From positions 1-6,203 of the forward strand of contig JAGRHW010000218.1 of assembly GCA_020444765.1 (NCBI GenBank): 6,203 bases of DNA. The letters run 5' to 3'. The DNA comes from Gammaproteobacteria bacterium (GTDB lineage Bacteria; Pseudomonadota; Gammaproteobacteria; Granulosicoccales; Granulosicoccaceae). This document shows positions 1,453 to 2,088 of this stretch, piece after piece. The position numbers and the translations under genes were made by a program. Every line of letters starts with the position of its first letter. Position 1 is the stretch's first letter. The notes beneath the pieces were generated by a model. It did not search any database. It had not been told where the DNA came from and saw only the letters and a list, made by a program, of their open reading frames with translations.

Positions 1453-1497
1453 TCAGGATTTTCCAGATAAAAATGGAACAAATCGCACAGATTCTTA
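1453..1497 (-). other. pcm C-terminal tail beyond an in-frame TAA
   Basis: Reading past the TAA at 1497-1495 in the pcm frame gives E-S-V-R-F-V-P-F-L-S-G-K-S and then TGA at 1455-1453. The E. coli Pcm C-terminus is E-A-V-R-F-V-P-L-V-K-G-E-L-A. The two align without a gap, with the TAA at the place of the Val just before. With this tail the protein would be 211 residues, against 208 in E. coli. Survival of the tail shows that it was recently coding, is still translated by read-through, or that the TAA is an error. Confidence 0.85.
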
Positions 1498-2088
1498 ATT
1501 CTCGAACAGAAATTCCCGCTCCGTGCGGGTAACGACCGTCAATACCTGGTCGCCGCTCTGGCGTCCGACCGGACAAACCAGCCTTCCACCTACCGCTAAC
1601 TGTTCACATAAGGCATCCGGAATCGATTCCGGCGCGGCGGTAACGATAATGCCGTCAAACGGGCCTTTCTCGGGCCAGCCCCATGAACCATCGGAATAAC
1701 GGCACTCGATATTGTCATAACCCAAGCGGCTGAATCGCTCACGCGCCTTGCCAAGCAGATTTTGAACGCGCTCACAGGTGTAGACCCGCTCGACCAGCCG
1801 GGACAGCACGGCAGCCTGGTAGCCGGAACCGGTGCCGACTTCAAGCACACTTCTGACTCTGCCGGCGGCGAGCAGGATTTCCGTCATCCGCGCTACTATA
1901 TAAGGCTGGGATATGGTTTGACCATCACCGATCGGTAAGGCGACATCCTCATAAGCGCGGGACGACAAGGCCTCGTCCATAAACAAATGCCGCGGGACGC
2001 TCGCCATCACCTCAAGCACGCGTCGGTCGCGGATGCCTTGTGCCTCGAGCCTTTGCACCATCCGGTCACGGGTTCGTTGCGAGACCAT
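1495..2088 (-). CDS. pcm: Protein-L-isoaspartate O-methyltransferase, frame ended early by TAA
   Basis: This enzyme methylates isoaspartyl residues in aged proteins using S-adenosylmethionine and starts their repair. From the ATG at 2088 the frame gives 197 residues. It contains the family signature A-L-P-I-G-D-G-Q-T-I-S-Q-P (about 50-62), SAM-binding motif I V-L-E-V-G-T-G-S-G (81-89) and F-D-G-I-I-V-T-A-A-P (144-153). This start aligns with the E. coli N-terminus (M-V-S-R-R); GGGA lies about 6 bases upstream. An ATG at 2142 in the same frame would add 18 residues and overlap surE by 19 bases. The frame stops at TAA (1497-1495) after E-F-L-F-E-N. E. coli Pcm continues at this point with V-E-A-V-R-F-V-P-L. 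The corresponding tail is present here directly after the stop, in frame (1494-1453). The gene may be a fresh nonsense allele, may be read through, or may contain a sequence error. The identity is certain; intact function is not. Confidence 0.93.
   Translation of the reverse strand: MVSQRTRDRMVQRLEAQGIRDRRVLEVMASVPRHLFMDEALSSRAYEDVALPIGDGQTISQPYIVARMTEILLAAGRVRSVLEVGTGSGYQAAVLSRLVERVYTCERVQNLLGKARERFSRLGYDNIECRYSDGSWGWPEKGPFDGIIVTAAPESIPDALCEQLAVGGRLVCPVGRQSGDQVLTVVTRTEREFLFEN

Follow-up and report, generated by a model that had tools for sequence, protein, structure and literature searches.

The pcm gene (protein-L-isoaspartate O-methyltransferase) on a 6,203-base contig from an uncultured gammaproteobacterium, the whole of which was analysed and is referred to here as the window, ends at an in-frame TAA at codon 216. 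The reading we favour, with a probability of about 0.5, is a very recent ochre nonsense change whose product is probably weak or inactive, and behind which the normal C-terminal tail would be too young to have decayed and would be partly constrained at the DNA level. The frame runs on the minus strand from an ATG at 2142 to the TAA, and its ORF translation ends in ...TEREFLFEN. A sequence-only reading of this DNA had reported the in-frame stop, followed by 13 further codons and then a TGA, and the ORF and translation confirm both the positions and the reading. In the features listed below, L001 is the closest genome locus and L084 is another locus from its family set.

1–768, minus strand: nlpD-like cell-wall hydrolase activator, partial, running off the window (the matches to the NCBIfam models ActS and NlpD stay below cut-off)
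769–1353, minus strand: intact gene for a membrane protein that we take to be YqaA/DedA-like, with the ATG at 1353 taken as its start (NCBIfam matches below cut-off only)
1436–1452, minus strand: 17-base conserved string just 3' of the TGA, identical in L001 and 16/17 in L084; promoter-like in its placing, with a putative function
1453–1455, minus strand: TGA, the usual frame end (TGA or TAA here in 30 lined-up relatives)
1456–1494, minus strand: 13-codon tail ESVRFVPFLSGKS, the usual Pcm C-terminus (in-frame translation past the TAA; relatives)
1495–1497, minus strand: in-frame TAA, codon 216, found in this contig alone (sense codon in 22/22 aligned relatives)
1495–2142, minus strand: pcm, 215 codons plus TAA (ORF; NCBIfam profiles)
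2124–2870, minus strand: surE, intact, overlapping the pcm start (ORF; profile; end agrees with L001)

The truncated protein belongs to the bacterial Pcm/PIMT family, scoring 250 bits against NF001453 (cut-off 188) and 197 bits against TIGR00080 (cut-off 159.05), and surE adjoins pcm in the window as it does in relatives. The GxGxG motif, to which a passage of PMC13001092 assigns a role in SAM binding, is present as EVGTGSGYQ (alignment columns 101–109). A Pcm profile built from the window's product together with related proteins gives a gapless alignment through to the C-terminal end of PDB 3lbf, identified as E. coli PIMT in PMC13001092; the window gene differs from this family in stopping 14 codons early, a count made up of codon 216 and the 13 codons of the tail. 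The tail was present in 109/109 distinct orthologous loci and in 119/120 of the closest proteins examined, where it is missing solely from the window's product (P0001); this bears out the earlier identification of these 13 codons as the conserved Pcm C-terminus, gapless to the E. coli end. At the level of motifs, FV[PS][LFM] occurs in the last 20 residues of 108/109 loci, with L013 carrying FVTL there and counted as holding the tail, while FVP[FLM] occurs in the last 20 residues of 118/120 proteins, P0018 having FVPC (also counted as a tail) and P0001 ending earlier. V219, F221, V222, P223, G227 and K228 are invariant across a 23-sequence alignment in which the window gene is translated through its stop.

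Comparison with relatives, which the sequence-only reading had proposed as a check, gave a uniform answer, with TAA at codon 216 in 0/109 loci and in 0/119 of the other proteins examined. Nine of the ten closest proteins (P0002–P0011) carry Lys at this position and the tenth (P0003) carries Arg, and L001 has Gly. These counts derive from 111 scored loci, 80 from public genomes (the best 80 of 570 confirmed, with the tail read by eye) and 31 from the genome of L001 and its family; L081, which repeats L001, and L082, a 34% paralog without the tail, were left out, and no two of the remaining 109 have the same last 150 residues. The first tail motif used missed L032 (FFVPL) and L060 (where the match began before a stop), both of which hold the tail and were counted. 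For the proteins, 8000 candidates were scored, 7882 passed E 1e-40 and the best 120 were examined. The family genome search gave a match at E 1e-60 in 44/48 genomes, with loci taken from 30, and an order-wide search returned the same 48 genomes. P0001 stands alone in its 90% cluster and is encoded on this single contig. A megablast search of plasmids with 769–2870 found nothing, and a search of a phage collection gave 11 records, all below 60% identity, so there was no sign of a mobile copy in either collection. An E. coli base-rate control for pcm truncation was dropped, as the matches covered no more than a short central segment of pcm (20% of the query; 3379/5426 genomes) and were uninformative on the tail.

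Loss of the tail is predicted to matter for the enzyme. In a model of the intact relative P0002 (mean pLDDT 78.5, pTM 0.80; 23 natural sequences), the last strand spans residues 211–219, and a stop at 216 falls within it and removes all six of the invariant residues named above. The window product, which ends at residue 215, therefore lacks the complete C-terminal strand and the FVP(F/L) segment, and it is probably weak or inactive. A role for the FVPF segment is suggested by its conservation rather than by the model, because the last eight residues (222–229) have pLDDT below 50. The FVP segment may aid substrate binding in human PIMT, a point left out of the argument; a literature search found no paper joining Val214 with isoaspartyl methyltransferase. 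Loss of pcm can be tolerated, since an E. coli pcm deletion is described in PMC10857468 as viable, with a longer lag and generation time.

The stop, its absence from the relatives examined, the intact tail and the DNA conservation are direct observations; we infer that the organism itself carries the stop, that the change is recent and that it damages the enzyme. Under this reading, an ochre nonsense change would have arisen very recently at codon 216, in this bacterium and in none of the relatives examined, such that translation would end inside the last predicted beta strand and the conserved FVPF segment would be lost. The tail would survive behind the stop because it has had too little time to decay, with some further protection from constraint on the DNA by an element at the gene end. 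In keeping with a recent change, the stop is not shared by the relatives examined and the frame is otherwise intact. This reading is also favoured because the tail residues are identical to those of L001 at 13/13 positions even though synonymous sites in the body of the gene are saturated (pS 0.761, pN 0.176 between window and L001), and a tail long released from selection should have changed at some of its 29 nonsynonymous sites. Counting against it, the stop is known from one contig only, and no other decay is seen in pcm or its neighbours.

The age of the stop can be estimated only softly. As rough arithmetic, about half a substitution per site on the window's branch would give approximately 14 changes across the tail's 29 nonsynonymous sites if these were free to vary; because none of these is seen, relaxation of the tail would date to roughly the final fifth of the branch at most, a figure that is valid only if the tail is under no other constraint. 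The estimate is soft because 13/13 identity to L001 is also found in 7/203 thirteen-codon windows of the pcm body. Moreover, the tail is conserved at synonymous sites, with pS 0.30 between window and L001, a value matched or undercut in only 2/203 thirteen-codon body windows (the two nonsynonymous steps counted in the tail are serine switching between its two codon boxes). In the V-x-F-V-P-F codons, x excepted, the first and second positions are fixed or nearly so and the third positions vary across 31 sequences, and protein-level selection on the tail is therefore real too. Both protein-level and DNA-level constraints act on the tail, and a simple dN/dS on the 13 codons, as earlier suggested, cannot tell read-through from a recent mutation, being confounded by the low pS of the tail (0.30, against 0.76 in the body).

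The DNA-level constraint may reflect a conserved element that overlaps or adjoins the end of pcm. Directly 3' of the gene, the window, L001 and L084 carry AAACCTGCTATTA[AG]TTC (1436–1452, minus strand, in the window). A different string, CTA[CT][AG]CT, was sought in 31 loci, made up of the window, L001 and 29 more. It lies in the first 25 bases after the end of pcm in 20/31, where shuffled sequence would give 0.29, and becomes rare farther out (0/31 at 26–50, 3/31 at 51–75 and 0/31 at 76–100 bases); among the other loci it occurs within 25 bases in 1/78. This second string is absent from the window, L001 and L084 and stands in other genomes of L001's family set, whose loci are L001 and L083–L111. 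A match to nlpD was found in 29/30 loci of this set (window left out), while a YqaA match between pcm and nlpD was found, besides the window, in L001 and L084 only and not in the other 28/30 loci (E 1e-4; 29 loci 2.4 to 3.6 kb long). Because of its placing, the element behind pcm is perhaps a promoter for nlpD or for yqaA-nlpD, and it may resemble the -10 region of stationary-phase promoters. No sigma-70 promoter turned up in a consensus scan of 1250–1700, which speaks against the element being a simple promoter of that class. The lone terminator-like match of the scan (1529–1515, minus strand) is no more than chance would give (0.7 expected).

The strongest alternative, to which we give somewhat less than an even chance, is a sequencing or assembly error, in which a single base was miscalled in a contig that is probably metagenomic and the organism's pcm is whole. 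The evidence from a single contig with no second copy, in which the rest of the gene and the tail are intact, fits such an error. Approximately 3.5% of single-base changes in the coding codons of the window make a stop, and an error rate of 1 in 1,000 would produce 0.19 such stops per window, falling to 0.02 at 1 in 10,000. However, the sequence shows no other sign of poor quality. The ends of the yqaA-like gene, of surE and of the genes ending at 3033, 4004 and 4604 fall at the same place as their L001 matches or at most five residues away, and no in-frame stop occurs in the window's other genes (1,801 codons counted across the window genes); the earlier view that the remaining genes look intact is upheld on these grounds, with nlpD running off the window. 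A real nonsense change is placed slightly ahead of an error because the rest of the contig gives no such sign.

Leaky or programmed read-through of the TAA, yielding a short and a long Pcm, had been offered alongside recent nonsense mutation and error; the latter two remain, while read-through has lost ground and now appears very unlikely. Genes with stop-codon read-through share with the window a conserved coding sequence behind an in-frame stop, and here the frame stays open for 13 true Pcm codons before closing where Pcm frames normally do. The TAA is followed by G, which lends slight support to leakiness, as the discussion in PMC6764699 holds that stops not followed by T would be especially leaky. 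Yet the window differs from read-through genes in that its stop is conserved in none of the relatives examined, and the other genes of the window offer no comparable in-frame stop. Read-through of UAA would also be unusual here, if true, because TAA is described, in the same paper, as the least leaky bacterial stop. The claim that survival of the tail is not chance stands as regards its residues, all 13 being identical to L001, but as an argument for read-through it is confounded by DNA-level conservation reaching past the TGA. Read-through here would mean that this UAA is partly decoded, so that one species makes two forms of Pcm, at a stop that evolved very recently, which we consider very unlikely. 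More generally, a coding tail kept behind a stop is weak evidence of read-through wherever conserved DNA of another function overlaps the gene end or lies next to it.

It is also highly improbable that the gene encodes a shortened but working Pcm, the tail having become dispensable in this lineage: the truncated protein does score above both family cut-offs, but the tail is kept in all orthologs examined and its six invariant residues would be lost. Least credible of all is that the lineage decodes UAA as an amino acid, through a suppressor tRNA or early codon reassignment, since although the other five visible gene stops (769, 2124, 3033, 4004 and 4604, minus strand) comprise four TAG, one TGA and no TAA, five genes are too few to judge stop usage, the window genes hold only the one in-frame TAA, and in L001 TAA closes both pcm and the match to yqaA.

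Isolated nonsense alleles and base errors are nothing unusual. Like recent nonsense alleles of non-essential bacterial genes, the window has one stop in a gene that is otherwise intact, seen in one sequence only, and it differs from them in that its stop may be an error. We regard the case as a single premature stop or base error, of an ordinary sort, in a gene that is well known.

Two further features were recorded in the window. A sulfatase-family protein is encoded at 4604–6190 on the minus strand, where arylsulfatase and choline-sulfatase models matched well below their cut-offs. The sole tRNA in the window is a tRNA-Arg (CCT) at 3791–3867 on the plus strand, which is identical to that of L001 at 76/77 bases, the longer flanking aligned pieces being 67–76% identical.
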